Origin: Halogeometricum pallidum JCM 14848 | Lineage (GTDB): Archaea > Halobacteriota > Halobacteria > Halobacteriales > Haloferacaceae | NCBI RefSeq assembly: GCF_000337095.1 | Contig: NZ_AOIV01000035.1 | Coordinates: forward strand, 66,509-108,441 | Direction of reading: 5' to 3' | Length of the DNA stretch: 41,933 nucleotides | Shown: positions 958-39,970 of the stretch, piece after piece | Layout of the letters: each line of letters opens with the position of its first letter | How positions within the stretch are numbered: position 1 is the first letter of the stretch | The notes under the pieces: model-generated | What the model was told of the DNA's origin: nothing | The model's input: only the letters and a program-made list of their open reading frames with translations | Databases searched by the model: none | Program-made: the position numbers and the translations under genes

Positions 958-2310
958 ATGGGAGTTACGTTCCTCCACACTGCAGATTTCCATCTCGGAA
1001 GTCCTCTCCGCGCTGTGGAAGCGGCATCTGAATCATTGGCTGAGCGCCTGCAGCGAGCGACGCACGAAGCCCTCCGTCGAGTCATCCAGGTCGCACTCGA
1101 CGAGGATGTCGACTTCGTCGTTGTCGCTGGCGACCTCTACGATCAGCAAGCGCGCTCCGTCTACGCGAATGAATTTCTCGTCAATCAATTCGAGCGGCTC
1201 GAAGACGCCGAGATCCCGTGTTATGTCGTCCACGGGAATCACGATCCATTAGGAGCAGGGGCAGAGAAACTCCCCTTACCCGAGAACGTCCACGTGTTCG
1301 GTGCAGACGACGTCGAGACGGTCCTGTACCCGAACGACGACGAGCCGGAGGCTCGCATCATGGGCCAATCCTATGGAAGTCAGTGGGAGAGCAACTCTCT
1401 GTACTATCACTACACACCGCCAGACACAGCAATCCCGAATATTGGCCTACTCCATACAGGCCTGAATCCGGATGGTCGACGGTACGCCCCCTGTGGACCA
1501 AGCGACTTAGCACAAAAAGAGATCGACTACTGGGCGCTCGGGCATATTCATACACCACGGCTCGTTGACGGAGCGCCAGCAGCGTACGCTGGTATACCAC
1601 AGGGACGAAATATTGGCGAAACTTCCGTCGGCGGGTGTTTGCTCGTCGACGTGGATGCAGGTGGCGACCCTGACATCGAGTTCGTTCCAACGAGCCCCAT
1701 CGTCTGGCAGGAAATCGTGGTCGACCTCGGCACTGCGAACACAGACGACGATGCTCCCCTTCGCAACCTTGCAGATGCGGAAGGGTACCTCGAGGAGCGT
1801 ATGTTAGACCTTCGGGTAGCGGACCAGGACTCTCTCACTGACGCCCTTCCGATGCCGGTGGCTGAAACTGATTGGATGCCAGAGGGGTTTGTATGTCGAT
1901 GGACGCTGACCGGCCGTGGAGAGCTGTCTAAAGCGCTCAATGAGGAAGCAACGGATGTGCTTGCCAACCAACTGCGGGATCGAAGCAGTAGTGGCTCACC
2001 CTTCGTGTGGACCGAATCTGTCCGTGATTACTCTGCACCACCGCTTCCAGACCTTGAGACGTTAGTAGAATCGGACGAGATTATTAGCGAACTCGTTGAG
2101 CTTTCCAACGAGATTCGAGGGGACGACGCGGCACGGGCTGAGCTGCGAGCGAAAACAGGTGACGTCTGGAAGTGGCGTACGGACGAAGAACACGAAGACG
2201 TTTCAGAGGAACGGATTGCGTTGGACGACAAACGACTAGATGACCTGATTGACCGCGCCGTCACTCGGTCAATCGACGAACTTGCGACACGGAGGGACAA
2301 TGCGAATTAA
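958..2310 (+). CDS. SbcD/Mre11-like metallophosphoesterase nuclease (YhaO type)
   Basis: 450-aa calcineurin-like phosphoesterase of the SbcD/Mre11 family, expected to be a Mn-dependent DNA nuclease. The metal-binding motifs are complete and in order: D10-x-H12, GDLYD at 58-62, GNHD at 93-96, H166, and GHIH at 195-198. The C-terminal 200 residues are acidic and charged, as expected for a capping or partner-binding region. The gene overlaps the next one, a Rad50/SbcC-like ATPase, by 11 nt, which is the usual SbcCD or YhaON arrangement and implies coupled translation and a complex. The likely role is processing of DNA ends, in repair or in attack on foreign DNA. The start at 958 places DxH close to the N-terminus, as is normal for the family. 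Confidence 0.85.
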   Translation: MGVTFLHTADFHLGSPLRAVEAASESLAERLQRATHEALRRVIQVALDEDVDFVVVAGDLYDQQARSVYANEFLVNQFERLEDAEIPCYVVHGNHDPLGAGAEKLPLPENVHVFGADDVETVLYPNDDEPEARIMGQSYGSQWESNSLYYHYTPPDTAIPNIGLLHTGLNPDGRRYAPCGPSDLAQKEIDYWALGHIHTPRLVDGAPAAYAGIPQGRNIGETSVGGCLLVDVDAGGDPDIEFVPTSPIVWQEIVVDLGTANTDDDAPLRNLADAEGYLEERMLDLRVADQDSLTDALPMPVAETDWMPEGFVCRWTLTGRGELSKALNEEATDVLANQLRDRSSSGSPFVWTESVRDYSAPPLPDLETLVESDEIISELVELSNEIRGDDAARAELRAKTGDVWKWRTDEEHEDVSEERIALDDKRLDDLIDRAVTRSIDELATRRDNAN

Positions 2311-5203
2311 GAACTTCGATCTGGATGATTTCGGATGCTTCAGGCGAGCTCGACTCCAAAATGTCGATGATGGATTGACCGTCATCGCTGGCCCACAACG
2401 AGCGGGGAAAACGACGTTTATGGAAGCGGTTCGCCATCTGGGCTATGGGATTTCTCGTGGTAATGGTCTCCCGCCAGCAACGGACCAGTATGACCTCACG
2501 GCCGACGTCGTCGTCAACGGCGCTGAATACGAGCTGGCACTCACTGGCTATGGTGATCCTGCACTAGCGCCTGTCAATGGTGCTCCCGATCGAGTACTCT
2601 CGGATGTGTTCGGCAATCTGGGGTCAGCACAGTACCAGCAACTCTTCACCATTAGTCTCGACGAACTCCGGCGAATGCCAACGAGTCTTGATGATGACGT
2701 TAGCCTGTCTGCAATCTTACTCGGTGCGGCGTATGGCGACGTTCTCAAAATCCCTCAGATTCAAGACGTATTCAGCGATCGGGCGAAATCGATCGGAGGC
2801 AAACACGGACGCGATGTCTATGACCTCAAGGAGCCAATTAATGAGATCCGGTCGGGAGTCGATGCGCGAGACGACGCCGTCGCCCAAGTCGACGAGCACG
2901 ATCGGAAGCAGGCTGCTCGTGGCGATGTGAATTCTCGCATCACGGAACTTGATGAGGAGATTGCTGATCTAACAACGGAACAAACCCGCCTCAACACGGT
3001 CCTCACGGAATACGAGGAGTTCGAGACGCTTCAGGAGCTGAATCTCGAACTTGATGGGGCTGACCTTGACAAAGTCGATGCGTTCCCGACAGACCAACTT
3101 GACCGCGCTCGGCAACTGCAAAGTCAGCTGGCGGAATGGCAGGAGGAACTGACGACTGCGGAAGAAGAGTTCGCTCGACAGGTTAGTGCGGAGGACCACG
3201 AAACGTATCGCGACCGGGTACTGGATGCCACGTCTACGATACGGGCGTACAACAGGGAAATTGCTGGCTGGCGTGAGCGGGTAAATTCAGTACAAGAGCA
3301 ACTGTCTGAGCTTGCGAAAGAGCGTCGAAAACTTCGCTCCCAGGCTGCGGACTTACAACCTGGATGGGATAGCGAATCCTTGCTTGACCGAATTCGTGAT
3401 ATTGAGACCGATCTGTTCTCTCGCGATGAAGTTCGGTCGATTACGCGCTCCTGTGAAGATCTCAAATCCGAATTAGATGAGGTTGAGCGCAACCTGAACG
3501 AGAAAACGGCTCGTCACGAACAGCTGGAACAGGAGATTGACACTGCAACCGACTCATCATCTGAGGCGTCTCACACACTTCGTGACCAGCTTCCCGTCGC
3601 TGCAGGTGGGACGGTAGTCGCGCTGATTGTGGGGAGTGCGGTGGGTGTTGTTGGTGGTGCGATTCCTGGTGTCGTCATCACGCTCGTGATAACCCTGATC
3701 GTCGGCACGTATGCCGCGTCACGGCTTGAATTCGAGTCCCCTGAAGTCGATGGCGTATCTGTCGAGACGCTTCGAGCAGACAAACGCAGCCTGACTGCCG
3801 ATATTGAAGGACTGCGCTCTCGAAAAGCGGGTCTCGAAACAGAGTATTCGACCGCGACCGAGCAATTGGACTCCCTCCGAGAGAAGCTCGGACTCTCAAA
3901 CGACACGAGTCCTGCTGCCGTACGAGAGTTCTATGCTGACATCTCCTCGCTCCGAGGCGATCTCATGACGCTGGAAGGAGACGTCGAAGCCCTCGATGAG
4001 AAGGAGGAAACCCTCCGTTCAGACCTCGCAGCAGTCGCCGATACCATGTCCGAACTCGGTGTTTTCGATACTGACGATATCGACCCGCTCGAAGACGCAG
4101 AGAAATTGTTCGCGACGGTCGAAAATACCGAAGACGACCTCGACCTCGCACAGGCGGTTACAACAGCCCAACGGACCGTCACCAGTCACAAAGATGACCT
4201 CCGTGATCTCTTAGCCGAGTGGGACGATGCACCAGATCTCACCACTGCTGATTCAGCTACTGTCGTTCGTACGGCCGACCAGTTCCTCGAACGCGGTGAG
4301 AGGGTCACTGAGCTCGTGGAAGCGCGGGAACAGCGCGACGAGATTCGCGTCCGACTCAAGCGCCGACTGACGGCGTCAGCCATCGAACCAGCGTTTGAGT
4401 CGTACCGCGATTCAGAGGACGACGATGACGACTGGGCGCTTGCTGCGTTCGAGTGTGTCGTTGAGGAGCACGCTAATAGAAAGGCGATCGAGGAGCGACT
4501 CGATACGATTGGGGAAACCATCGAGAGCCTTGAAACGGAACGATCGGAGTGTGTTGAAGACCGGGTTGAACTCACGAAAGAACTCGAAGAGCTCGCCTCC
4601 GATGACGATGTCCGCGAGGCACATGCGACGATCGAGGCGGGGCGACGTCGACTCGAACCGCTTGCCGAGGAGTATGCGACGTCTCGCATCGCCGAGTACC
4701 TGCTGAACGAACTCCACGAACGATTCATTGACCGGACAACTGGGCCACTTCTCGACGAAGCCAGCGAGATTTTCGCGCGAATCACCGACAACGCCTATAC
4801 CGAGGTCGACTCCACGAACGAGTTCGACAATCTCGACTTCCAGTCGGTGCTCGCTGATGGCCAGACACAACGTACCGCGGAATTATCGCGAGCCACTGCC
4901 GAACAGCTGTTCCTCGCGATTCGCCTTGCTCGGATTCGTCGCCATGAATCGTCGCTCCCCGTGTTGCTCGATGACTCGATAACAAACTTCGACCCCGCTC
5001 ACCACGTTCGAACGCTGCAGACGATCTCCGAGTTGGCGGATACGAACCAGGTTTTCCTGCTGACGTGCCACCCGGAACTTCTTGAACGAGTCGATACGCA
5101 CACAGATAGCGCCCAGTACTGGAGTCTTGACGATGGCCAGTTCGATGGGCCCTACTCTGAGCCGGACGAACCCTGCGGACTGCTGGAGCCAACCTGGTCG
5201 TAG
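2300..5203 (+). CDS. Rad50/SbcC-like ATPase with central membrane segments (YhaN type)
   Basis: 967-aa SMC-like ATPase. Walker A is GPQRAGKT at 31-38. Two long coiled-coil stretches flank a central hydrophobic region (about 430-475) rich in V, G, I and L, which looks like two transmembrane helices. The C-terminus carries the signature-like ELSRATAEQLFLAIRLAR, then Walker B LPVLLDDSITNFD. The membrane segments separate it from classical Rad50 and match YhaN-type proteins. I chose ATG 2300 because Walker A then falls at the usual distance from the N-terminus and a GGAGG lies at 2291-2295, inside the end of the nuclease gene. With the upstream phosphoesterase it should form an ATP-driven nuclease, possibly tethered to the membrane. 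Its TAG stop directly abuts the stop of the next, convergent gene. Confidence 0.82.
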   Translation: MRIKNFDLDDFGCFRRARLQNVDDGLTVIAGPQRAGKTTFMEAVRHLGYGISRGNGLPPATDQYDLTADVVVNGAEYELALTGYGDPALAPVNGAPDRVLSDVFGNLGSAQYQQLFTISLDELRRMPTSLDDDVSLSAILLGAAYGDVLKIPQIQDVFSDRAKSIGGKHGRDVYDLKEPINEIRSGVDARDDAVAQVDEHDRKQAARGDVNSRITELDEEIADLTTEQTRLNTVLTEYEEFETLQELNLELDGADLDKVDAFPTDQLDRARQLQSQLAEWQEELTTAEEEFARQVSAEDHETYRDRVLDATSTIRAYNREIAGWRERVNSVQEQLSELAKERRKLRSQAADLQPGWDSESLLDRIRDIETDLFSRDEVRSITRSCEDLKSELDEVERNLNEKTARHEQLEQEIDTATDSSSEASHTLRDQLPVAAGGTVVALIVGSAVGVVGGAIPGVVITLVITLIVGTYAASRLEFESPEVDGVSVETLRADKRSLTADIEGLRSRKAGLETEYSTATEQLDSLREKLGLSNDTSPAAVREFYADISSLRGDLMTLEGDVEALDEKEETLRSDLAAVADTMSELGVFDTDDIDPLEDAEKLFATVENTEDDLDLAQAVTTAQRTVTSHKDDLRDLLAEWDDAPDLTTADSATVVRTADQFLERGERVTELVEAREQRDEIRVRLKRRLTASAIEPAFESYRDSEDDDDDWALAAFECVVEEHANRKAIEERLDTIGETIESLETERSECVEDRVELTKELEELASDDDVREAHATIEAGRRRLEPLAEEYATSRIAEYLLNELHERFIDRTTGPLLDEASEIFARITDNAYTEVDSTNEFDNLDFQSVLADGQTQRTAELSRATAEQLFLAIRLARIRRHESSLPVLLDDSITNFDPAHHVRTLQTISELADTNQVFLLTCHPELLERVDTHTDSAQYWSLDDGQFDGPYSEPDEPCGLLEPTWS

Positions 5204-8611: not shown

Positions 8612-10690
8612 ATGTCTGCAGTTGGTCACTTGGTGACAGAACTTCCTGGGGTGCTTCATCTGTTCTCTCCAACTGGACCCCCACTTGAGGAGCGAGTCGC
8701 ACCTATCTTCACCGAGTGTCTGAGTGAACACGATGTCAGCGATATCCTTGTGTTGAAGCGGTTTCCAACTGGCATCGAGACGTTTACCGATGTCTTGGCG
8801 ACTCACGTCGACTCCGTTGAACGACCAGAAGTGATGTCGCTCACGCGGTTCGCACGGACAATCCTCGAATCAAGCCCAGAGAACCCGACACTCGTCTCTC
8901 AGCATGAACGTGCTGCAGTTCTCGCGTCGGTCCTCTCTGGGTACGAATGGACCGACTTGTTTCTGCAACAAGCGTCGGCATTCGATGCCTTCGAAGACGA
9001 CGTCGGCCGTTTCACCTTGGCAGCAGCGTGGCAAAACCAGGATGTGGATACGAACGATCCCGCGCTTGCTGAATTATTTGACTTCACAGCTCATCTACAG
9101 GAGGTTCTTGCGACGAACGAGTATGCTGAACGTGCGAGCATCATCCCACGAGCGTTAGAGTACTTGGAAGCGGAGACCGCACCTTCGCCAATTCTCGACC
9201 GGTTCGATCTGATTCTGACAGTAGAGGTCGAAGAGTTCTCCGCCCTGGAACGCCGATTCTTGGCAGCCGTGTCGACGGACACTGAACTGGTGTGTGTCGG
9301 AGAACGACATGGGAGTATTCAGCGGGTCCGGAACGAACCTGGAGACATCACCGACCATCTCCAGATGGAAACCTTCGTCCACGATTCCTCGTCTCCCATC
9401 TCGGGCCCTGCCCAGGTAGCAGCGCATCTCGCGACCGGCGAAGCGCCGAAACCGGAAGCTACGGACGGTCTCTTCGAGATAACCGAGGAAACGTTCGCCG
9501 ACCAGGTACAGACCGTCGCAGAAGAAATCGAACGCCGGCGAACGACAGAGGGGTGGTCGTACGACGAGTTCGCGGTTGTCCTCAAGGATTCGAGTTCCCC
9601 TATCCAAGAGACCGTTCGCATCTTACAGCAAGCAGGCATTCCGACAGCGTCGATCACCACGAGTGCGCTCTCTGATGACCCTGCCGCCCGGGAGCTGTAT
9701 CATGTTGCTCGATATCTTAAGTCGGGCGGAGACGACCAATCCCGAACGCTGCTCGAAGCCAGAGTGCCGGACTTCACGATGATTCTCGACGATGACGAGC
9801 TGGCGACTGCATCGGTTTCGGACGCTTTGACGACTTGGGTCCTCGACACTGATCTCAAGCAACGAGTCGCTTCGACCGAATCACGGCTGGAAGCTCGTAT
9901 CCAGTTCCAGCACATCAAGCGCGTTCTCGACCTCGCACGGTTCGTTGAGGACTGCCCGCTACTGGACTCTTCGTGGGACGCGTTCTGTCAGGCACTGGAG
10001 CGAGCATTCCGATACTCCGCGCCCGACTTCTACAGCGAGGTCGACGTGAAGGAGGGTGGGGTCCTCGTCGACTCTGCTCGTGTGGTCAAAAACGCTTCCT
10101 GGAAAGCGGTGTTCGTCTTGAACGTCGTCGAGGAGGAGTACCCTGCAGTCCCACGGTTTTCGTCGCTCTTTCCGATTGCGCAGCTCAAATCGCTTCCCGA
10201 ATATCCAGCTGTCACGAGTCCGACTCGAGACGAGGTTCGTGCAACGTTCCCGACCGCTGACGACGACATCGAACACCCGTTCTCGGCGTACTATACCGAG
10301 CTGAGTCGACGGCTCCTCGCGGTTGGAGCCAACGCGGCGACGGATCAACTGTACTTCTGTACCTATGCAGAGAACGCAGCAGATCCAGGAAAGTACAAGC
10401 AGCCGTCTCGCTTCTTGCAACAGCTCCGGGATCTGTTCGAGTTCGACTTGATCACCCACGAGGACGTCCATAGCCAGGGTCGTGCTGCAACGAGGGTTCT
10501 CTCCAGCGTTGAGCGTACTCTCCAGGACGTACGGACCGCCCCCGTCACTGGCGACGAGGTCGACCTGAACGCGATTGAGACGCAGTTCGGCGCGATTCAG
10601 CAGCTGTTGGATGAGACAGATGACCCCGGACTTGAAGCCGCATTCGAAGCGCATGTCGACTTCGCTGAAGGGAGGGTTCGCCGTGACTGA
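8612..10690 (+). CDS. AddB-like inactive helicase subunit
   Basis: 692-aa protein with the layout of a superfamily 1 (UvrD/AddB-like) helicase but no Walker A lysine motif. The N-terminus (LVTELPGVLHLFSPTGPP) replaces the P-loop region. Later helicase-like segments remain, such as DFYSEVDVKEGGVLVDSARVV and FVLNVVEEEYP (about residues 470-515), which resemble the AddB/RecC region aligned with UvrD motifs V and VI. In AddAB the AddB chain carries a dead helicase that reads sequence plus a C-terminal Fe-S nuclease. Here the nuclease is a separate overlapping gene immediately downstream. The likely role is the structural or recognition subunit of a three-part helicase-nuclease. Assignment to this superfamily rests on order, context and weak motifs. 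Confidence 0.6.
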   Translation: MSAVGHLVTELPGVLHLFSPTGPPLEERVAPIFTECLSEHDVSDILVLKRFPTGIETFTDVLATHVDSVERPEVMSLTRFARTILESSPENPTLVSQHERAAVLASVLSGYEWTDLFLQQASAFDAFEDDVGRFTLAAAWQNQDVDTNDPALAELFDFTAHLQEVLATNEYAERASIIPRALEYLEAETAPSPILDRFDLILTVEVEEFSALERRFLAAVSTDTELVCVGERHGSIQRVRNEPGDITDHLQMETFVHDSSSPISGPAQVAAHLATGEAPKPEATDGLFEITEETFADQVQTVAEEIERRRTTEGWSYDEFAVVLKDSSSPIQETVRILQQAGIPTASITTSALSDDPAARELYHVARYLKSGGDDQSRTLLEARVPDFTMILDDDELATASVSDALTTWVLDTDLKQRVASTESRLEARIQFQHIKRVLDLARFVEDCPLLDSSWDAFCQALERAFRYSAPDFYSEVDVKEGGVLVDSARVVKNASWKAVFVLNVVEEEYPAVPRFSSLFPIAQLKSLPEYPAVTSPTRDEVRATFPTADDDIEHPFSAYYTELSRRLLAVGANAATDQLYFCTYAENAADPGKYKQPSRFLQQLRDLFEFDLITHEDVHSQGRAATRVLSSVERTLQDVRTAPVTGDEVDLNAIETQFGAIQQLLDETDDPGLEAAFEAHVDFAEGRVRRD

Positions 10691-11597
10691 TTCCGACTCG
10701 TCGCGACCGTTGTCTCCTTCCCGACTGGGAACGTACACTCGGTGCCCGCGTCAGTACGAATATAAGCACGACCTCTCTGTCGAAAACCCCGATCAAACGC
10801 GCCAGCATTTAGACCGTGGACTAGCGCTGCACGGCACCATTGAACATGTCTGTGAGACTATGGCTGGAGAGTCGGATGAAGAGATTCGTGCTGTCGCGCT
10901 TGATGCCTTCGACGACGAGTGGGACTCCCAGACGAGTCGTACTGAATATACTACTAGTGCCCACTACGAGTATGATGAGCAACTCGCTCGTGCAGCGATT
11001 GAGGCCTACTTCTCGACCGGACCCGGAGTCGGTCACGTGCAGGGATCAGTTCTCACGGAAGTCGAACTCGAATGCGAACGAGATGGGATCCTTCTCCACG
11101 GGTACGCTGATAACGTCGTCCGTACGGACGATGGCCTTCAGGTCATCGACTACAAGCCATCCGTCAGATACGAACTCTCGACGAGCGACCGCGCAAAGGA
11201 AAAGCTCCGCGAGCACCTTGCCGGCGAGGACTATCACCCTCGTCTCGTCAAGAGCGCGATTCAGGCGGCGACCTACATTGAGGGGATTCAGAATACATCC
11301 GTTTACGAGCCGGGGATGGAGATCGTCTTCACGTACTATGGGTTGCTTGCCAACACAGATATAGAAAAGAGTACTGCCGGCGTCCAGCCCCGTGTCTCGG
11401 GCTATGGTCGCAACGTTGAGGAAACCTACTACAGCGAAGAAGAAACGATCTGGGGACTGATTCAGCGGGCACACGATGGGATCCGTGAGGACAACTACGA
11501 GCCCATTCGGTGGGACGCGATCCGCGAGAATGCCTGTGACCGGTGTGATTACCGTTCTATGTGTACCGATGCACTCGCAGAGGAGGTGCAGTTCTGA
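10683..11597 (+). CDS. Cas4/AddB-like Fe-S PD-(D/E)XK nuclease
   Basis: 304-aa RecB-family nuclease. Four cysteines in the Cas4/AddB pattern (C21 near the N-terminus and C285, C288, C294 at the C-terminus) should hold a 4Fe-4S cluster. The active site is GYADNVV (D143) followed by VIDYK (D156, K158), with an upstream histidine in LALHGTIEH. I chose GTG 10683 because a GGAGGG lies at 10671-10676 and because this start puts C21 in SRLGTYTRCPRQYEY, the normal N-terminal motif. It overlaps the AddB-like gene by 8 nt and touches the helicase gene (TGATG), so all three are probably translated together. Together with the upstream gene it looks like an AddB split into two chains. Confidence 0.82.
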   Translation: MTDSDSSRPLSPSRLGTYTRCPRQYEYKHDLSVENPDQTRQHLDRGLALHGTIEHVCETMAGESDEEIRAVALDAFDDEWDSQTSRTEYTTSAHYEYDEQLARAAIEAYFSTGPGVGHVQGSVLTEVELECERDGILLHGYADNVVRTDDGLQVIDYKPSVRYELSTSDRAKEKLREHLAGEDYHPRLVKSAIQAATYIEGIQNTSVYEPGMEIVFTYYGLLANTDIEKSTAGVQPRVSGYGRNVEETYYSEEETIWGLIQRAHDGIREDNYEPIRWDAIRENACDRCDYRSMCTDALAEEVQF

Positions 11598-14500
11598 TGT
11601 CGCCTTCTCCCTCTGAAGACGACTCCGACGAAGAGCCGTCGCCGCGGATTCCCCAACAGCGCATTATCGAGTCTAGTGAGTACCCAATGCGAGTGTTGGC
11701 CGGGGCCGGGACCGGTAAGACGTTCACGATGGTTCGGAAGGTCGAACACCTGATCGACGAACACGACGTCTCACCGGATCGAATCCTCGCATTGACGTTC
11801 ACGAACAAGGCTGCAGCCTCGATGCGCGAGAAGCTGAATGAGAAGCTTGGCGCACCGGGATATGACGTGAACGCGTACACCTATCACTCCATCTGCCACG
11901 ATATCCTTCGAGAGTATGCGTATCACGCTGAAATCGATCCGCAATTCGATGTCGTGAATAACGCTGATCGAACTGCCCTCATTCACGAAGCGCTCGACGA
12001 AATCACCTATCGATTCACCAGTCCTGAAGTCTACGGTCCCGATTCACATGCCGATGGGGCTGCAGGCAGCCTGCTCAAATTCATCTCCACGATGAAGAGC
12101 AAAGGGATCTCGCCGAGTACCATCGAGACATTCCTTGGTGACGCTGACCGACTCCTGGAACTGGAGGCACTTGTCGACCGAATTGTCGACCGGGCGAATG
12201 AGACAGTCCGGGTCAGCTGGCGGGCCCCGTCTGCAGACCGCCTCGAAGAGATGCGTGACGGCCTCGCAGACCTCCAACAATCGATAGAAGACGAACGAAC
12301 CGCGCTCGGCCAAACCGGTGTTGAACAGTCGGTTGCGACGTTTCTGTGTGGCATGGAGGAGACCTGTACCTCTCTCGCAGAGCTATTAGAAACGGAGGAG
12401 GCGTCGATCATCGATGATGAGCACAAGCCCGCGTTCCGTCTGCCAGCTTATCTGTTCGGGACGTACGCCAGTCCACCGAGCGGTATCCCCGATTCGATGT
12501 CTGTCACGCTCACCGGGAAACTTCGATCGTTCGTCGAGGAATGCCAGGAAGCAGCCGATCTGGTCGCTGGCTATACGGCGTACGAGCAACGCCTTCACGA
12601 GGCATCGCTGGTTGACTTTGCTGACTTGATCGGTGCGACGCTCGATCTTCTTGAGGACCCGAACATCCGTGCCGAAATTGCGGGACAGTATGATTACGTG
12701 TTCTGTGACGAATTCCAGGACACGGATGCTGTCCAATTCGAGCTGGTCGACCAGCTCGCGGACGATGACAAACTGTTCGTGGTCGGTGATGATGACCAGG
12801 CGATCTACGAGTGGCGTGGGGCGGCAGTCGAGAACATCGGGCACCGACTCGAGGAGCGCTACGAGACGCTGATACCAGAAACGCTTGAGGAGAACTTCCG
12901 CTCCAAGCAACCGATTCTGGATGTCGCGAACAACGTCATTGCACAGCTAGAGGCCCGTGGAAGCGAGAAGGAACTCACCGCGGTCGGTGACGCTGCGAAT
13001 GCGAGCGATGGTATTGCGACGATAACGGCAGCAGAGGACGATGAAGAGCAGGCTGAACAGATTGCGACTGCGATCGGCCGTCTCCTTGCAGGGTCACTCA
13101 GTGACGTCGATGAAACGTACGGTGCAGGCGATATCGCACTTCTCGTACGGAAAAACCGCCATGCAAAGCCGATTGTACGGGCGCTTGAAGAGCGCGGCAT
13201 CCCGTATCAACTCGCTGGTGGACTCGCGGCTGATTCGGTTGGTGTTGAGACCGTCCTCGCGTATCTCAAAGCACTCGCGAACCCAGCGGACGAGGTCAGT
13301 CTGAATCGTGTGTTGACGATGCGCTATCGGCTTCACGACGTTGACCTCCGACTACTAAACACAGCCTCTGATTCGTTATCGGAGGCATTGCAGTCGCTTC
13401 CACTCGACCAGTTTCGTGAGCCAGAGCGCGTTCGTCGTGCCCGCGAAGATTTCCAGGCGCTGCGTGCCAAGCGAGAGATCTACTCCGTAGCTCGTCTGTT
13501 CCGTGAGTTGAAGGAGCAGACAAATATCGACTGGTACTTGTCACCACAAGAACGACGAGACCTACGGACCTTGGAGTCACTTATCGACTCCTTCGGAGAG
13601 GGGGCGCTCCAGCCAGCATTAGATGAGTCGTTCCTTGAGCTGCTCTCCCTCATGGAGTCACTTGACGATAGTGTCGCTGGCGTACAGGACCAAGCTGAAA
13701 CAGTGAGTGACGCGGTCAACATCATGACTGTACACAAGAGCAAGGGACTGGAGTTCCCGGTCGTCTTTCTCCCGAACCTTTCTGCTGACCAGTGGGAACC
13801 GAGTACGCGCTCGTACGATACTCTCGGCCACACGCTCGAAGAGACAGCTGCTACCCCGCTTGACCAGGACTTCGAAAAGCGTGACGAGTACGAAGCGCGC
13901 CGCATTTTCCACGTTGCCATGACGCGTGCGGAAGAACAGCTCGTACTCGTTGGTCGACACGCCGACGACGGCGGAGTTGATGACGGTGATCTCTCGCTAT
14001 CGTTCATCGACTCCTGGCTTCCCGAGCAAATCCCTTGGCGAGCCACCGGCGCATCCTTCCCCATCTGGCAAGAGGTTACCGCTGGACTTCCACCGACGGC
14101 CACAGATTGGACGGACGAGGTTGCTCCGATCGATGGCGGCGTGGATCCGACGATCTCTGTGAACGGCGAATCCGTACCCCAGTCAGTGGCCCGGGACCGC
14201 GTTCTAGCACTTGCGCGTGGTTTATTGAACGGGGACCTCGATTCTGTCTCACCTGCAACGGCTGGATTTGCCGTTGAGGCGCTGTCGACGGATGGTGGTC
14301 CTGCGCTGAGTCACCGGCACAGCTATACTTCACTCGAGAAGTACAGCCAGTGTTCTCGGCGACACTATCTCGATTATCTTGTTCGTGCATTCGAGGATCC
14401 CCAGCGAGGTGACACCGGTTCCAACACCGTGTCGATTCGTGATACGGGTATCCTCTTCCACGATACCGCTGAGCTAGCTGCGAAACGGAGTCTTACATCA

Positions 14501-15028
14501 CCCGAGAAGTGGAACGATGTCTGCGACGAACTCGGCCGCCAGGGGAGTTACTCGGCAGGTATCGTTGATCAGGCTAAGGGTTGCATCGATCGGTACTTCA
14601 GCACTGAGGCAAGTTCGTGGGAGATCCTTAGTGCAGAACGGTCATTCACGCTCGACATTGATGGTCATACGATTACGGGGAAAATTGACGCCGTCTATCG
14701 CAACTCGGCTGGCAACCTCGTCGTCCTTGATTACAAGGCGACCACGATGCAGCGCTCGCTCGATGACAACCTCCAGTTGCCGATCTACCTGCTCGCCTGC
14801 CAACAGCTCTTCGACGAACGAATCGATGAAGCTGGCTATGTCTATGTCGGGTCGGTTGGCCCCGACATGAGTACTCGGACGTTCTCTGATGATGAATTAG
14901 CGCAGTGTCGACAAGACCTCCTCACACGGTTACAAGCGGCTGAGGACTCGACCTTTGATGACTATACTGCGGGCGATCACTGCCAGTGGTGTCCTCACCG
15001 TAGCCTGTCCTGCAGCCAAACTCACTAA
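11597..15028 (+). CDS. AddA-like UvrD helicase fused to Fe-S PD-(D/E)XK nuclease
   Basis: 1143-aa superfamily 1A helicase-nuclease. Helicase motifs in order: Q motif PQQ (19-21), Walker A AGAGTGKT (35-42), motif Ia LALTFTNKAA, Walker B CDEFQD (D371, E372), motif III VGDDDQAIYEWRGA, the TVHKSKGLEFPVVFLP motif, and MTRAEEQLVLVG. The C-terminal RecB nuclease has GKIDAVY (D1031) and VLDYK (D1045, K1047). Cysteines C919, C1129, C1132 and C1139 would bind an Fe-S cluster, with spacing slightly different from AddB. Classical AddA nucleases lack the cluster, so this chain combines an AddA helicase with an AddB-like nuclease. I start at ATG 11597, overlapping the TGA of the previous gene. It probably unwinds and degrades DNA ends with the two upstream products. 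Confidence 0.87.
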   Translation: MSPSPSEDDSDEEPSPRIPQQRIIESSEYPMRVLAGAGTGKTFTMVRKVEHLIDEHDVSPDRILALTFTNKAAASMREKLNEKLGAPGYDVNAYTYHSICHDILREYAYHAEIDPQFDVVNNADRTALIHEALDEITYRFTSPEVYGPDSHADGAAGSLLKFISTMKSKGISPSTIETFLGDADRLLELEALVDRIVDRANETVRVSWRAPSADRLEEMRDGLADLQQSIEDERTALGQTGVEQSVATFLCGMEETCTSLAELLETEEASIIDDEHKPAFRLPAYLFGTYASPPSGIPDSMSVTLTGKLRSFVEECQEAADLVAGYTAYEQRLHEASLVDFADLIGATLDLLEDPNIRAEIAGQYDYVFCDEFQDTDAVQFELVDQLADDDKLFVVGDDDQAIYEWRGAAVENIGHRLEERYETLIPETLEENFRSKQPILDVANNVIAQLEARGSEKELTAVGDAANASDGIATITAAEDDEEQAEQIATAIGRLLAGSLSDVDETYGAGDIALLVRKNRHAKPIVRALEERGIPYQLAGGLAADSVGVETVLAYLKALANPADEVSLNRVLTMRYRLHDVDLRLLNTASDSLSEALQSLPLDQFREPERVRRAREDFQALRAKREIYSVARLFRELKEQTNIDWYLSPQERRDLRTLESLIDSFGEGALQPALDESFLELLSLMESLDDSVAGVQDQAETVSDAVNIMTVHKSKGLEFPVVFLPNLSADQWEPSTRSYDTLGHTLEETAATPLDQDFEKRDEYEARRIFHVAMTRAEEQLVLVGRHADDGGVDDGDLSLSFIDSWLPEQIPWRATGASFPIWQEVTAGLPPTATDWTDEVAPIDGGVDPTISVNGESVPQSVARDRVLALARGLLNGDLDSVSPATAGFAVEALSTDGGPALSHRHSYTSLEKYSQCSRRHYLDYLVRAFEDPQRGDTGSNTVSIRDTGILFHDTAELAAKRSLTSPEKWNDVCDELGRQGSYSAGIVDQAKGCIDRYFSTEASSWEILSAERSFTLDIDGHTITGKIDAVYRNSAGNLVVLDYKATTMQRSLDDNLQLPIYLLACQQLFDERIDEAGYVYVGSVGPDMSTRTFSDDELAQCRQDLLTRLQAAEDSTFDDYTAGDHCQWCPHRSLSCSQTH

Positions 15029-23817: not shown

Positions 23818-23912
23818 ATGGCAGTAGTATTGCCTCTGGTGCACTAATTCAACGAACTTGATTCTTATTGAGTCTCTATGGTCAAAAGATACATCTCGTT
23901 TCATCTTTTCCC

Positions 23913-23922
23913 TAGAATTAAG
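23913..23922 (+). promoter_or_regulatory. Probable TATA box of the Argonaute gene
   Basis: TAGAATTAAG lies 28-37 nt before the ATG at 23950. It sits inside the longer open frame that begins at 23878, which argues for the downstream start. Confidence 0.4.
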
Positions 23923-23949
23923 TTATGCGGTGTGTACTTATGTTTGAGG

Positions 23950-26469
23950 ATGAACACCAAGGACGACATTGCTCACAAGCAGCCGATAACAATCGAGGTT
24001 CAGGTCCTCAAGGAACTCGACAAGCCTAGCCCGAAGATGGCAACTCGTCTTCTCGTCGCTGACCGTGCTGGGAATCGGTTCCCCCTAGCGATCTGGAAGA
24101 ACAACGCACTCTCGGATTACGACTGGACGATCGGCCAATGGTACCGACTCGAGAACGCACGCGGAAATGTCTTCAACGGGAAACAGAGTCTGAATGGCTC
24201 GTCGAATATGCGTGCGACACCCCTGGAGGCATCAGAGGAGGACGAGACGAGGGCCGACGATGTAGGGCGTGTTGACACCATTCTCGGAAACTTGTCGCCT
24301 AATCAGGCCTACCTCTCGCTCTTCCCGATCAGTCGGTCCTTCGATACCCTCTCGGTCTACGAGTACTCGATTGAAGCGGCTGAGGCCTTTGAGGATGATC
24401 CCGATACAGTCACCTACCAATGTGCTGGTCGGCTCCGTCGAATTACTGGCGCAGGCGTCGCGTATGCGGGCCCGATGCAGATCGTGTCGACCCGGAAACT
24501 CCCGGATAAACTCGCGGACCCGTTCTCGCTGAGCGAACCGACGGAGCGAGAACTGAAAGCAGCTGATGCCCGGGATCGTCATCGAATCGAGCGGCTCCTC
24601 AAATCACTCGTCAAAGCTGCAATCGACGACTCGACGTACGACCCGTACCAGATCAACCGAATTCGTGCGCGAACACCCGCGATCACTGCCGGAGATGGGC
24701 TCTTCGAGGCGTGTTACGAGTTCGCCGCACGGGTTGATGTCATGCCATCAGGTGATGCATTCGTGGGCATCGAAGTGCGCTACCACGCGCGGAGTCAGGT
24801 CACTGCTGACGTCTACGAGGACAAGACTGGCGAGTTAGTCGGAACTATCGTCGAGCACGACCCCGAGCGGTACAACGTCAGTGGGACTGGACGAGTAGTG
24901 GGATTCACCGACCACTACTTTACCGATGCTCTCGACGAACTCGGCGGCCTCTCACTTGCAGACTGGTACGCTCAGAAGGATCGCGTTCCCGAAGGCGTCC
25001 TCGAGGCGCTTCGTGAGAAAAATCCACGGCTCGTCGATATCCAGTATCAGGAAGACGAACCTGCTCAAATCCACGTGCCAGAACTGCTCCGAGTCGCACC
25101 ACGCAAGGAAGTGGTCAAGGAATTGGACCCAACCTTTCATCGACGGTGGGACCGCGAGGCAAAGATGCTACCAGATAAGCGGTTCCGCCACGCTATCGAG
25201 TTCGTCGATCATCTCGGCAGCCTCCCCGACATCGATGCGACGGTTGCTCCAGAGCCTCTCGGTCCGAGTCTGTCCTACATGTCGACAGCCGTCGATCGCG
25301 AGGAGAATCTCCGATTTAAGGACGGACGAACGGCTACCACTCCGTCGAGCGGGATTCGCTCAGGGGTCTACCAACAACCCACGAGCTTCGATATCGCGTA
25401 CGTCTACCCCACGGAGAGCGAACAGGAGAGTAAGCAGTTTATCTCGAACTTCGAGAACAAGCTTTCACGATGTCACTGCGAGCCAACGGCAACGCGTCAT
25501 GTTCCCTACGAACTCGGCGGTGAACTCAGCTACCTTGCTGTCATCAACGAACTGGAGTCGGTAGACGCTGTCCTTGCTGTCGTCCCGCCACGGAACGACG
25601 ACCGAATTGCAGCTGGGGACATCACCGACCCCTACCCTGAATTCAAGAAAGGGCTCGGAAAGCAAAAGGTCCCGTCACAGATGGTCGTGACCGAAAACCT
25701 CGACACGAGATGGGTGATGAACAACACTGCAATGGGGCTCATTGCAGGTGCTGGTGGTGTTCCATGGCGCGTCGACGAGATGCCCGGTGAAGCGGACTGT
25801 TTCATTGGCCTCGACGTCACTCGCGATCCGGAGACGGGGCAACATCTCGGTGCTAGTGCGAACGTGGTCTACGCTGATGGTACAGTCTTCGCCTCGAAGA
25901 CTCAGACACTACAATCGGGAGAGACGTTCGACGAACAATCCATCATCGACGTCATCAAAGACGTCTTCCAGGAGTTTGTTCGACGCGAAGGACGGTCACC
26001 CGAGCACATCGTCATCCACCGCGACGGTCGGCTATTCGAGGACGCAGATGAGATTCAGGCACCGTTCGCAGACTCGGGCGTCTCAATCGACATCCTCGAC
26101 ATCCGAAAGAGCGGTGCTCCACGTATCGCCCGGTACGAGGATAACTCGTTCAAAATCGATGAAAAGGGCAGGCTGTTCATCTCCCAAGATGATACCCACG
26201 GGTTCATCGCGACCACTGGGAAACCTGAGTTCGATGACTCGGATAACCTTGGGACCCCGAAAACGCTACGCGTTGTTCGACGTGCGGGCGACACGCCGAT
26301 GCTGACGCTCCTGAAGCAGGTGTACTGGCTGAGTGAAGCCCATATCGGAAGTGTCTCGCGGAGTGTTCGGCTTCCGATTACGACCTACTACGCAGACCGC
26401 TGCGCTGAGCACGCCCGAGAGGGCTATCTACTCCACGGTGAACTGATCGAGGGGGTTCCGTATCTGTAG
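23950..26469 (+). CDS. ago: Long prokaryotic Argonaute, NgAgo-like, with N-terminal OB-like domain
   Basis: 839-aa nucleic-acid-guided nuclease. Residues ~10-92 form a small beta-rich domain (ITIEVQVLKEL...FPLAIWKNNALSDY...YRLENARGNVF) resembling an OB fold, as found at the N-terminus of Natronobacterium gregoryi Argonaute. N/PAZ-like regions follow. The MID region contains KQKVPSQMVV, where guide 5'-end binding is expected. The PIWI domain has all four catalytic acids: D622 (FIGLDVTRD), E658 (SGETF), D692 (HRDGR) and D816 (TTYYADRC). Their spacing is close to NgAgo, so it should be cleavage-competent. I start at MNTKDD (23950) because the TATA-like box falls inside the longer frame. A PLD/ATPase gene follows 64 nt later on the same strand, so the two are probably a unit against plasmids or viruses. 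Confidence 0.92.
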   Translation: MNTKDDIAHKQPITIEVQVLKELDKPSPKMATRLLVADRAGNRFPLAIWKNNALSDYDWTIGQWYRLENARGNVFNGKQSLNGSSNMRATPLEASEEDETRADDVGRVDTILGNLSPNQAYLSLFPISRSFDTLSVYEYSIEAAEAFEDDPDTVTYQCAGRLRRITGAGVAYAGPMQIVSTRKLPDKLADPFSLSEPTERELKAADARDRHRIERLLKSLVKAAIDDSTYDPYQINRIRARTPAITAGDGLFEACYEFAARVDVMPSGDAFVGIEVRYHARSQVTADVYEDKTGELVGTIVEHDPERYNVSGTGRVVGFTDHYFTDALDELGGLSLADWYAQKDRVPEGVLEALREKNPRLVDIQYQEDEPAQIHVPELLRVAPRKEVVKELDPTFHRRWDREAKMLPDKRFRHAIEFVDHLGSLPDIDATVAPEPLGPSLSYMSTAVDREENLRFKDGRTATTPSSGIRSGVYQQPTSFDIAYVYPTESEQESKQFISNFENKLSRCHCEPTATRHVPYELGGELSYLAVINELESVDAVLAVVPPRNDDRIAAGDITDPYPEFKKGLGKQKVPSQMVVTENLDTRWVMNNTAMGLIAGAGGVPWRVDEMPGEADCFIGLDVTRDPETGQHLGASANVVYADGTVFASKTQTLQSGETFDEQSIIDVIKDVFQEFVRREGRSPEHIVIHRDGRLFEDADEIQAPFADSGVSIDILDIRKSGAPRIARYEDNSFKIDEKGRLFISQDDTHGFIATTGKPEFDDSDNLGTPKTLRVVRRAGDTPMLTLLKQVYWLSEAHIGSVSRSVRLPITTYYADRCAEHAREGYLLHGELIEGVPYL

Positions 26470-26533
26470 CCACCCCTCGGCCAATGGTGAGCGGCGATCT
26501 CATCACTGAGTCCGTTTAAACCCACACAAACCC

Positions 26534-28591
26534 ATGAACTTTAGCACACCAATCACGGTCCCACGCAGTGACGGCGACGACACGGTCGAAATCAAGATGG
26601 AGCTCGCGATGATCCGGTCGTGGCGCTCGTTCGTGAAGTACTTCGGGGAGGCACGGACCATTCGTACTGTCACCTACTCGCAGTCGCCCCAGATCATTCA
26701 CGAAGTATTCAACCACGAACAGCTCGACATCGATTTCCTTGAAGTGGTTATCGGTGATTACCGCCAGAGCGAGTATCGGAAAGATCTGCAGGGAGACGTT
26801 GACCTGGCAGCACAGCTAAACCATCTACTCCAAGATGAGCAGCTCCAGCTGTTCACCCTTGATAAGCAGGTGACGCTTCATTCAAAGCTATACCTGATCG
26901 AGAATCGCGATGGTAGCCGTACACTCATCCTTGGGTCGCCCAACCTCTCGAAGCAAGCGTGGGAGGGAAACCAGACGAATATGCTGGTTGCCTTTTCAAC
27001 GGATGGTACTTCGGTTATCGACACTTGGTTCGAGAAGTTCTACGAAGCGCATCGAAAGCAATGTGAGGTGTTCATGAAGGACCTCACAGAGCGACTTGAT
27101 GCTGCCGAGACACCAGAGGAGCGAACGGAGGAACTACACCTCTGGGTTGACGGAACGACGCCGTCGAACAACCCCACTGGTGATCTTCACCGCCGTATCG
27201 TCGATCTTCTCGACGAAAACGACGAGCGAATCCGGCGGGTCAACGTGGCTTCTGATCCGGACGAGGCAGACGAAATCGTCGCGCTCTCAACCGATGGCTC
27301 TGGAGATGTCGATCCGACAGATGTCGGACCGAGTCAACAGATCCGACTCTCTCCACAAGGCCTCGAAGACCCGGTTAAAAGCGCCAAACCTACGCTTACG
27401 CGTCACAACGTTGTGGTGAAACCAACGGAACTCTGTGGATCGCCAGCTGGCTTCGCCCGCTATATGCGGTCGTTCAATGATGACTTCCCAATAATGTGGG
27501 TCAACGAGGATGAGCAGTCGGTCAGAATGCAGGTGGATAATACCACGCTGGAACTTACTTCTGCCCCTGACCACACCTCGGAAGTCGACGATGCACTAGC
27601 GCATCTCGAATCCTACATTGAGACGATCCAGCGCTTTGGAGACACCAAGTACTCGGAGGCCACGATGGCGCATTTCTATGAGGCACTGATATACTTTTTC
27701 TGGGCTCCATTTGCGGATCACTTCGCGAATCATTACGCTGGTACCCCCGGCGCTGAACTTGACAAGGACCTCCCCTTCCTCTACATTCATGGTGGAAACG
27801 ACTCCGGCAAGGGGATGTTCATCCGGTTTGCGACTCGGCTCATCTCGAATGGGTATGTAGCAGAACCTGTGGAAGGAACGCAATTCACGAAGGACGCGAT
27901 CAACCGGTGCCGAGGGTCGAATACTGTCTTCCCATTCGTCGTTGACGACGTCGATAAGGGTAATGTTGAGCGCGACATCGTCAAGACCTACTGGGAAGGG
28001 GGCTGGGATGGTTCAGTTTCGTTCCCTACGTTCATTTTCACCAGCAACCACACGAAGCCCAAGTCGGAGTTCCGTACCCGAATGAAGGTCCTCGACTTCG
28101 ACGTCATGTTCGACGTTACTGGTGATCAGCGCGAGCAAGCCGCTCGGATTGCAAACGAACCGAACCGACTCTTCTCTTGGTTCTCGCACTTTATGTTCGA
28201 ACAAGAGCTTTCACTTCCGGATCGGTCGGACAAGTTAGCTGTCGCTCGAGATGTCTTCAAACAGCTGTACGAGTTTGCTGGACGTGACGAACCCGACTAC
28301 TTCCCGTCTGAAGGCCCTGCCGAGGACATCTATGATCATGGTCGGCGAGTGTGGCGACACGCACACGAGAGCGATCTGTTCACCCTTGAAACACGGAATG
28401 GAGTTATCCGTGCGGACTTCTCCGCTGAACTTGAGTCACAAGACGTCTGGAAGTACCAGAAGCTCGTGCCCGCAACGATTCGGGCAGAAAAGCAACGAGC
28501 ACGGATAGAGTTTAGTCAACCTGAGCGGTTCTTTGAGTGGACTGGTATCAAACCCAAACGCGGGTTTTTGCAGCGTCTGGGATTCAGATAG
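26534..28591 (+). CDS. PLD-like phosphodiesterase/P-loop ATPase fusion
   Basis: 685 aa. The N-terminal ~180 residues look like a phospholipase D-type nuclease or binding domain: HSKLYLIE (H116, K118) then LGSPNLS (N137), a single HxK...GSxN motif. A charged linker (about 180-270) leads to a second part with Walker A GGNDSGKG (420-427, G in place of S/T), a Walker B-like FPFVVDDVDK and a sensor-like TFIFTSN, as in SF3/AAA+ ATPases. A single HKD motif implies dimerisation or a non-catalytic role. It follows the Argonaute by 64 nt on the same strand and is the best candidate partner, perhaps loading, unwinding or cutting DNA once Argonaute finds a target. I know of no characterised pair of this exact form. 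Confidence 0.72.
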   Translation: MNFSTPITVPRSDGDDTVEIKMELAMIRSWRSFVKYFGEARTIRTVTYSQSPQIIHEVFNHEQLDIDFLEVVIGDYRQSEYRKDLQGDVDLAAQLNHLLQDEQLQLFTLDKQVTLHSKLYLIENRDGSRTLILGSPNLSKQAWEGNQTNMLVAFSTDGTSVIDTWFEKFYEAHRKQCEVFMKDLTERLDAAETPEERTEELHLWVDGTTPSNNPTGDLHRRIVDLLDENDERIRRVNVASDPDEADEIVALSTDGSGDVDPTDVGPSQQIRLSPQGLEDPVKSAKPTLTRHNVVVKPTELCGSPAGFARYMRSFNDDFPIMWVNEDEQSVRMQVDNTTLELTSAPDHTSEVDDALAHLESYIETIQRFGDTKYSEATMAHFYEALIYFFWAPFADHFANHYAGTPGAELDKDLPFLYIHGGNDSGKGMFIRFATRLISNGYVAEPVEGTQFTKDAINRCRGSNTVFPFVVDDVDKGNVERDIVKTYWEGGWDGSVSFPTFIFTSNHTKPKSEFRTRMKVLDFDVMFDVTGDQREQAARIANEPNRLFSWFSHFMFEQELSLPDRSDKLAVARDVFKQLYEFAGRDEPDYFPSEGPAEDIYDHGRRVWRHAHESDLFTLETRNGVIRADFSAELESQDVWKYQKLVPATIRAEKQRARIEFSQPERFFEWTGIKPKRGFLQRLGFR

Positions 28592-28629: not shown

Positions 28630-30228
28630 CTATGCAAGCATGAGATAGAACCAGTATGGAATACGTACGATCGGTGTCTCTTCAAGAACTTCCACTGGCT
28701 CTGACAAGGTCGCAGTGTCACCTGCAACAACAATACCAAGCGGAGCTTCGTAAGTCTCAATGAACTCTGCAACTGCATCTGTTGTTGGCTCCATCGAACC
28801 CGCTCGATAGCCTAGTCCGATAGGAACAGGGACACCTGCACACTCGAACACGAAATCGACCTCACCTTCCGTTCCTGGCCAGTACTCGACTGTCGGTTCA
28901 GCTGGTGGATCGTAGTCCTCGAATTCATACCCCGCGGAAAAGTTCATATTGAAACTGAGACGCATCGAGTGGTCAAAGGCTGCTACATGTGCCAGCTTCG
29001 ATTCAAGCTGATAGTCGTTGAGGACCTCACTGGGTGTATGGCCGGTATAGGCATTGACGAGCGCCGTATCACGTAGGTAGAGTCGAATAGAACGTGGACG
29101 GCTGTTATCGTATTCTGGGGATGGAGTGAGAAGGAATAGCTTACTGAGGGCTTCAAAGTAGCTCTCTCGAAGTGTTCGTCGATCAACGTCGAAGAGTTCA
29201 GAAATACGGTTGTATTTGAACGGTGTTTCCAGATCTGCCGCCACGAGTGCACACAGTCGCTCTAAGTCTGCAATGTTCTTCACTGCATCTAGGCCTGGTA
29301 TCTCTTGGTAGAGAGAGAGCCGTACGTCTTCGCGGCGCTGTTTGTAGGCATCTTCTGAGAGCTTTGATGCAGAATCGACTCCTTCTGCTTCGTAGCTGAG
29401 GATCCCACCAAGTGCGAGGTAGTGCGCCACCTGCGAACGAATACGACTCGCATCGGCCTCTACAGAGTCATAGAGTTCGCATAACGCCTCGAAAAATTGC
29501 ACTGGGTCATTCGTCCGACAGGCGTTTGGTAATCCGGTCTCACCTCGACGAATTAGTGAGGGTCTCAGCCGTCTCTCGTCTTCTTCGAGTTTCGGGAAGA
29601 CACTCTGAATATGGTCACGGAACTTTTCGGGGAAAATCGGCCAAACCGAATATCGATCGGCATCGAATCCAACTCGTTTGAGCTCTCGGTTGATCTGAAC
29701 CTCTGCACTTGCAGTGAGAATCACATGCCGGTCTTCTGCTTCTTTGAGTAGCGACTTAACTTCCTCACCCCATCCTTCTAGAGACTTATTCGGATGTTCA
29801 ATCCGATGCACGTCGTCTAAGATGATGTACTGTGGCGCTTCGTTCTCGAATACCTGGCTCAGAATACGTCCCTCGTAATAGTTGACTGCACGTCGTAGCT
29901 GGTCATTTGACTGGAGCTGGTATAGCGGGTTTGCGTCGAAAGGAATGTAGAGTACGTTTTGAGGCGGGATCTCGTCTTCTTTGATCCGCTGGCGGATAAA
30001 CTGATTAATGAGTACGGTTTTCCCGACTCCTCTTTGTCCAACTAACGCATACACATCGTATTTATCGGGTTCTGGTTTGGATCCGTAAGGTGATGCAAAT
30101 CGATAAAAGTCACTTTTCTTCTGCGTTGGAATGGTTAATTCGTCAAGTGCGCTCACACCGTTTCTCCACCAGGGGTTGTGACGATGGAGGTTAGATAGAA
30201 GCGAGTTGTCGATTGTGTCTTTTGTCAT
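28630..30228 (-). CDS. AAA ATPase with DUF4143-type C-terminus
   Basis: 532 aa. Walker A is GQRGVGKT (64-71) and Walker B is YIILDDVHRIE. The sequence continues through a sensor region (HVILTASAEVQINREL) into a winged-helix-like part (YNRISELFDVDRRTLRESYFEALSKLFLL) and the DUF4143 region (RPRSIRLYLRDTALVNAYTG). DUF4143 usually ends in a PD-(D/E)XK-like fold with VDF...K. Here GTEGEVDFVFECAGVPVPIGL keeps E-x-D but has no lysine, so it is probably not an active nuclease. Such proteins are widespread in archaea with no agreed function. It converges on the Argonaute operon, so it is not co-transcribed with it. Confidence 0.75.
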   Translation of the reverse strand: MTKDTIDNSLLSNLHRHNPWWRNGVSALDELTIPTQKKSDFYRFASPYGSKPEPDKYDVYALVGQRGVGKTVLINQFIRQRIKEDEIPPQNVLYIPFDANPLYQLQSNDQLRRAVNYYEGRILSQVFENEAPQYIILDDVHRIEHPNKSLEGWGEEVKSLLKEAEDRHVILTASAEVQINRELKRVGFDADRYSVWPIFPEKFRDHIQSVFPKLEEDERRLRPSLIRRGETGLPNACRTNDPVQFFEALCELYDSVEADASRIRSQVAHYLALGGILSYEAEGVDSASKLSEDAYKQRREDVRLSLYQEIPGLDAVKNIADLERLCALVAADLETPFKYNRISELFDVDRRTLRESYFEALSKLFLLTPSPEYDNSRPRSIRLYLRDTALVNAYTGHTPSEVLNDYQLESKLAHVAAFDHSMRLSFNMNFSAGYEFEDYDPPAEPTVEYWPGTEGEVDFVFECAGVPVPIGLGYRAGSMEPTTDAVAEFIETYEAPLGIVVAGDTATLSEPVEVLEETPIVRIPYWFYLMLA

Positions 30229-33569: not shown

Positions 33570-33961
33570 TACTGATGGATTCGGACGGTCATTCAAAGGG
33601 TCTTCCGAGTCAAATAGACATTTGAGAGGCGGATGCAAAGGATGTTCGAGTTTGAACACACAGCGAGCCCGATCTTGGGCGTTGTACTATTGGAGAAGAA
33701 CTGCGCGAACAACCTACTCCAGAAGAGTCCGCTTCGGTTCCGGGGCTGCAGGGAAACAACAGAGCGAATTGGAGATTAACGTCACACCGATCGGCCAGAT
33801 TGTGTGTTCACGCTCGGCGATCGTGTGAACTCAAATGAAAGCGAACGGGAGGAGTTTCGTTCTCTGTTAGGGGTGTGCCTAGGGGCACGTGATCAAAACA
33901 CTCCACATACTTTCGCGTAGCCGTTTCCCCAGAAGCGTGGTGTGTGGGTCGGTCGTTCACA
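33570..33961. other. Intergenic, 392 nt, between brxHII and nuclease gene
   Basis: No gene supported. It contains a short hairpin, GTGCC-N4-GGCAC, at 33875-33888 that could end the BREX transcript. I see no clear promoter motif for the nuclease gene. Confidence 0.4.
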
Positions 33962-36871: not shown

Positions 36872-36901
36872 TATTTGATCAAACTGCTAACCTGTATCTA
36901 A

Positions 36902-37759: not shown

Positions 37760-37780
37760 ACCCTATCTACAGATATACAC

Positions 37781-37790
37781 TAATATAAAC
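37781..37790 (-). promoter_or_regulatory. TATA box of the inserted BREX-locus gene
   Basis: Read on the minus strand, GTTTATATTA lies 22-31 nt before ATG 37759, within the 58-nt gap after pglZ. It implies independent transcription of this gene and possibly of brxHII. Confidence 0.5.
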
Positions 37791-37817
37791 ATATCTGATA
37801 TTTCGGATGGCGGGCAA

Positions 37818-39968: not shown

Positions 39969-39970
39969 GA

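Follow-up and report, generated by a model that had tools for sequence, protein, structure and literature searches.

The haloarchaeal APAP system, named by Cheng et al. in 2024 for its two genes, ago and agaP, pairs an Argonaute (Ago) with a PLD protein (PMC11442185). The two genes are co-transcribed in Natrinema pellirubrum, and the N. pellirubrum pair is active as a two-gene insert in another species, Haloarcula hispanica. In that host AgaP is toxic without Ago, and mutations of its PLD catalytic residues abolish the toxicity. Restriction of plasmids requires the PLD but not Ago catalysis; an ssDNA virus is restricted only with catalytically active Ago, and AgaP strengthens the effect. At an MOI of 10, viral DNA is suppressed and there is no signature of abortive infection (PMC11442185). 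DndCDEA-PbeABCD (PMC6459918), likewise a haloarchaeal defence, has PLD-helicase (PbeA) and SMC-like (PbeC) proteins, but it is phosphorothioate-dependent and has no Ago; AgaP matches PbeA in the PLD part only (9.8e-4). A link between prokaryotic Argonautes and the processing of DNA ends is also on record: the guides of CbAgo, SeAgo and LrAgo depend on RecBCD/AddAB, with RecBCD influencing how pAgo guides are made, and AddAB comes down with TtAgo in co-precipitation (PMC10269773). The enzyme in those cases is a host housekeeping one, whereas in many relatives of the locus described here the resection genes adjoin Ago.

The stretch of Halogeometricum pallidum JCM 14848 DNA analysed here (41,933 nucleotides of contig NZ_AOIV01000035.1; the window) almost certainly encodes a new, divergent member of this already known kind, an APAP pair. 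The preliminary description of the locus knew of no characterised system with such a partner; the assays of APAP in H. hispanica (PMC11442185) make that statement outdated, and the reading of the partner as unknown was rejected on the strength of the same paper. Both systems are haloarchaeal and combine a catalytically intact long-A Ago with an adjacent PLD protein encoded on the same strand, and the intergenic gap in the window, 64 nt, lies inside the published range of 31-64 (PMC11442185). The homology of the window AgaP is drawn from full-length alignment and a tree with Ago-linked homologues, the type AgaP being known by description. The differences are of three kinds. The published AgaP has ~49 residues between HxK and GSxN, whereas the window protein has 15; the window copy falls in a separate clade that shares ~33% identity with split-motif members; and the publication describes neither a C-terminal motor nor resection neighbours, save for "a helicase-encoding gene" near some operons. 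The name APAP comes from the association of Ago with a PLD protein and does not depend on the motif spacing. The spacing is 14-15 in 69 of 84 AgaP relatives and 44-61 in the other 15, all on one branch; the split motif thus looks like a subclade insertion, judged from the alignment, and the window pair is filed as an APAP variant.

Argonaute and AgaP of the window

The Ago open reading frame spans 23878-26469 on the forward strand; homologue alignments begin at the ATG at 23950, and from there (23950..26469, +) the gene encodes an 839-aa long-A Ago with OB and PAZ/MID/PIWI domains, assigned from Pfam, PADLOC, alignment and profiles. Pfam Piwi matches at 1.7e-16, and PADLOC pAgo scores 1089 bits over residues 76-839. 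The DEDX tetrad is complete (D622, E658, D692 and D816), CpAgo aligns over the region that contains it, and DEDD is invariant in 47 haloarchaeal Agos, save two with truncated C-termini. Profile searches assign residues 1 to ~115 to an SSB/RPA-like OB domain, with matches to Teb1 (4e-6), 2kbn (1e-4) and single-stranded DNA binding proteins (0.01). These profile matches assign the window Ago to the OB-containing, NgAgo-like class; the N-terminal OB domain claimed earlier is borne out by them. OB domains of the Ago type also occur at loci L235 and L242-L246, fused to Mre11-like phosphoesterases and to PolB/RNaseH-like exonucleases, and to an SF2 helicase of 1575 aa that bears HNH repeats. These fusions fit a shared role in binding ssDNA or DNA ends and are consistent with the Ago OB domain being a promiscuous haloarchaeal ssDNA-binding module. 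In a second Ago clade, mostly OB-less, a DUF2797 gene lies directly upstream of Ago or overlaps it, often by 4 nt (L074, L135-L140, L115-L117); its product is possibly another dedicated Ago partner.

AgaP (26534..28591, +) follows Ago on the same strand and comprises 685 aa, divided by domain matches, an AlphaFold2 model and alignment into an NgoAVII/Nuc-type PLD nuclease (~1-186) and an MCM/SF3/D5-like AAA+ motor (~320-608). The preliminary description had the catalytic acids of Ago, the 685-aa PLD/ATPase protein and the same-strand gap right in every residue and length. AgaP has a single, compact PLD motif (H116, K118, G134, S135, N137; HxK-15-GSxN; PLDc_2 6e-8), and its motor carries Walker A residues G420, G425 and K426, followed by D472 and a sensor-like N505. 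The PLD, Walker A, D472 and N505 residues are invariant across 84 AgaP homologues except for G134 in one, and in the motor G425, K426, D472, N505 and R516 are all invariant in the homologue alignment.

A sequence search of the PDB with AgaP gave no match, and the fold was reached solely through the AlphaFold2 model (pLDDT 85, pTM 0.70). In structure comparison, residues 1-186 of the model match the NgoAVII R-protein (4rct), SauUSI (7clg) and Nuc; the best match of residues 320-608 is the SCCmec Cch helicase 5dgk (Z 13.3), and others are MCM8/9 (Z 9.6), the SaPI5 primase-helicase (9.2), poxvirus D5 (9.1) and MCM2-7 (Z 9-10). NgoAVII and SauUSI, ATP-dependent PLD restriction enzymes that rank near the top of the structural matches to the PLD part, likewise couple a PLD nuclease to a helicase motor. 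Their motors are of the SF2 type, whereas that of AgaP is MCM/SF3/D5-like. The C-terminal part, with its AAA+ fold, Walker A and B motifs and sensor Asn and Arg, has in model and alignment the features of a ring helicase, and AgaP is most simply read as a PLD nuclease on a putative MCM/SF3/D5-type ring motor, which would be expected to form hexamers and unwind DNA. The AAA+ and PLD matches, which lend support to the earlier claim of a nuclease joined to a helicase-type motor, speak for the fold of AgaP, not for its activity. IMG/VR viral contigs contain no AgaP relative, and a viral origin is unsupported. AgaP relatives do occur in MAGs labelled "bacterium" and "Bacteroidetes" (L157, L158), as possible binning errors or as real transfer.

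Resection genes in the window and among its relatives

The preliminary description was silent on DNA end-resection genes, which are the commoner neighbours of AgaP. In the window, domain profiles identify an Mre11/SbcD-like phosphoesterase (c30, 958..2310, +) and a Rad50/SMC-like ATPase (c63, 2249..5203, +). Further downstream lie the two parts of a putative split AddB, an AddB/UvrD-like helicase part (c8, 8612..10690, +) and a PD-(D/E)XK nuclease part (c9, 10575..11597, +, with its true start perhaps at a GTG at ~10680), and an AddA/RecB-like UvrD helicase with a C-terminal PD-(D/E)XK nuclease (c5, 11561..15028, +). The matches of c5 to PF00580 (7e-65), PDDEXK_1 (9e-28) and TIGR02785 (3e-54, under the equivalog cut-off) qualify it as AddA; c9, whose four conserved cysteines recall AddB/Cas4 and which matches TIGR02786 (6e-5), is a probable AddB-type nuclease part in a separate ORF. 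The AddB match of c8 stands at 1e-3, and UvrD, AdnA and AddB folds come from a low-confidence model (pLDDT 57); structure alone was dropped as proof of AddAB identity for c8 because the model is too weak. Unrelated genes separate the AddBA cassette from Ago, which lies 8.9 kb further downstream, so that AddBA and Ago-AgaP are not one operon in the window.

The same cassettes recur in a genome of another family (G186), where c30-c63-c8-c9-c5, at 88-94% identity, lie upstream of a matching Ago-AgaP pair (Ago 96% and AgaP 95% identical to the window copies) together with c4; the distance from AddBA to Ago is there 15 kb. In the window c4, an AAA_14/DUF4143 ATPase (PADLOC PDC-S01; 28630..30228, -), is convergent with AgaP and lies 38 nt beyond it; it lies near 22 of 24 OB-Agos. 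Not all of the window island is shared. In the window a gene for a GmrSD type IV restriction protein is inserted after the Rad50-like gene and before the AddB-like one (6052-8301), a position at which G186 lacks it (L236), and BREX-type genes (33962-40070, -), a BrxHII-like helicase (2029 bits) and PglZ (1256 bits), are absent beside the G186 copy of the Ago pair. Since the block is conserved without these genes, it moved together or was kept together, and its members may function jointly. The window also holds candidate defence genes, PADLOC PDC-S31 and PDC-S11 (DUF4268), at 18842-19972 and 32481-33659, and a SIR2-like and HerA pair stands beside the G186 Ago locus (L236 16159-19126).

Beyond these two copies, at least two DNA-resection genes lie within 12 kb at 50 of 93 AgaP loci, annotated with a simple gene caller that relies on acidic composition and may leave spurious or missed ORFs. 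Two machines alternate near AgaP: split AddB (c8 helicase-like, c9 Fe-S-type PD-(D/E)XK) with AddA (c5), or Mre11-Rad50-NurA-HerA. The order Ago-AgaP-AddBhel-AddBnuc-AddA is found at 13 loci of one AgaP clade in several families, with usual gaps of 63, 5, -4 and -4 nt and with Ago decayed in two. Other layouts are Ago-AgaP-Mre11-Rad50-NurA (L072), Mre11-Rad50-NurA-HerA-AgaP-Ago (L073, L074), AgaP-Ago-AddB-AddA (L123), AddB-AddA-Ago (L128, L132) and Ago-helicase-Mre11-Rad50 (L124); at L131 Ago stands between an Mre11/Rad50-like pair and AddA-AddB, and at L087 c30 and c63 come directly after AgaP. Counted more strictly, 45 of 84 full-length AgaPs have a resection module within 12 kb and 39 do not; for Ago the module is that close in 29 of 47. 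In 28 of the 84 AgaPs and 24 of the 47 Agos, a resection gene stands in the same run of same-strand genes. When AgaP is collapsed at 60% identity, resection genes are present in 8 of 12 clusters and Ago in 6. For NurA, 24 of the 84 AgaPs have a copy within 12 kb, against less than 1% expected by chance from NurA genome counts (~1.2 copies per genome). Across genomes an extra, second NurA co-occurs with AgaP (p=5e-10), and the link persists among Ago-free genomes (p=7e-10), both by Fisher tests that ignore shared descent. On the tree the window clade retains AgaP and its sister clades have AddAB or Mre11-Rad50-NurA-HerA; within a large 37-row AgaP clade the strand and distance of the resection genes vary. 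An MrfA-like helicase and an RNase_H_2/HHH protein also recur beside AgaP or Ago, sometimes with ThiF/JAB (L081, L085, L089-L094, L129-L133).

Association of AgaP with Argonaute and with resection genes

The 391 haloarchaeal genomes searched include 94 with an AgaP relative and 53 with a true Ago; the two occur together in 39 genomes where 12.7 are expected (p=1e-16, Fisher, with shared descent ignored). The preliminary description took the partner to be dedicated to Ago, and named an AgaP found mostly without Argonaute as evidence to the contrary. That is the distribution observed, 55 of the 94 AgaP genomes having no Ago. The association is strong within the OB-Ago group, where 21 of 24 have AgaP no more than three genes away, but the claim of a dedicated partner fails for the family as a whole, in which Ago is that close at only 26 of the 93 AgaP loci. 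After the 95% identical copy, the closest AgaPs are 66-67% identical and come from genomes in which no Argonaute was found. Where Ago or AgaP is decayed, the neighbouring resection genes are mostly still open (L066, L071, L095, L099, L086, L122), a sign of separable loss. That many natural genomes carry AgaP but no Ago is paradoxical, given the toxicity of AgaP alone in one host; resection proteins may restrain AgaP where Ago is absent.

These facts allow several readings. The locus may be an APAP-type defence that works with a dedicated, private DNA end-resection machine, a coupling that is read from gene order and that we judge to be evenly poised between right and wrong. It is favoured by the 13 tight five-gene loci, the independent layouts, the Ago-free NurA link, the G186 cassette, the predicted fold of AgaP, the OB fusions and the bacterial precedents for TtAgo and RecBCD. 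Counting against it are the many AgaPs that lack a module, the tendency of defence islands to gather genes by chance, the distance of the cassette from Ago in the window and in G186, the activity of the published pair as a two-gene insert, and the weak model of the AddB helicase part. A rather unlikely alternative is that only Ago and AgaP form the system, as published, and that the resection genes are separate defence or repair modules sharing islands and plasmids. The two-gene insert does restrict plasmid and virus in H. hispanica (PMC11442185), the window Add cassette is not adjacent to Ago, and the island harbours BREX-type and GmrSD genes as well. This account is harder to reconcile with the close packing of these genes on one strand in several families (5-nt gaps, 4-nt overlaps), with recurrence in unrelated layouts, and with linkage of AgaP to resection genes where Ago is missing.

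Another reading, also rather unlikely, has AgaP working chiefly with resection complexes, as an independent restriction module of PLD and helicase to which Argonaute is one of several interchangeable target-finding add-ons. The 55 Ago-free AgaP genomes fit this, as do the AgaP-Mre11-Rad50-NurA-c11-HerA arrays without Ago at L062-L064, whose AgaPs are the 66-67% identical ones, and a tree that requires no fewer than 7 changes in association with Ago and 21 in the type of resection machine. The near-constant retention of AgaP by the OB-Ago group, the toxicity of AgaP without Ago in H. hispanica (PMC11442185) and the many AgaPs with neither Ago nor a resection neighbour speak against it. Distinctly improbable is a toxin logic, in which AgaP would be an unspecific nuclease acting as a poison, Ago would keep it in check, and infected cells would be killed or arrested: AgaP alone is indeed toxic through its catalytic residues, but viral DNA is suppressed at an MOI of 10 with no abortive-infection signature (PMC11442185), and the Ago active site is intact, whereas short and long-B pAgo systems are catalytically inactive.

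The architecture of Ago and AgaP, the invariance of their active sites and the operon linkage are established by this analysis. The boldest form of the coupled-resection reading is a single genetically encoded loop of Argonaute, PLD/ring-helicase effector and private AddAB or Mre11-Rad50-NurA-HerA machine, which we put forward tentatively, as having somewhat less than an even chance. In the steps envisaged for coupled defence, invader DNA, once opened or broken, would be unwound and resected by the AddAB-like or Mre11-Rad50-NurA-HerA machine to ssDNA and short fragments. Argonaute would hold the ssDNA through its OB domain, load fragments as guides, and nick or mark matching DNA; AgaP, held inactive by its partner, would be licensed at the marked DNA, translocate and cut. 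The cuts would provide the resection machine with new ends, and the loop, feeding itself, would act preferentially on invader DNA present in many copies.

The literature searched, mostly open-access articles, contains no paper on Ago with dedicated resection operons, and as far as it shows, the coupling of Ago and AgaP to a private resection machine seems new; so does the resemblance, in the model, of the nuclease partner AgaP to a ring-helicase motor. How catalytically active prokaryotic Argonautes obtain their guides and open double-stranded DNA is a long-standing question, for which bacterial evidence implicates RecBCD/AddAB, but as a host enzyme. Loci with a resection machine next to Ago, and a nuclease/helicase gene between, make the question testable in genetically tractable haloarchaea, and they offer Ago a salt-adapted, mesophilic helicase-nuclease partner, as predicted here.
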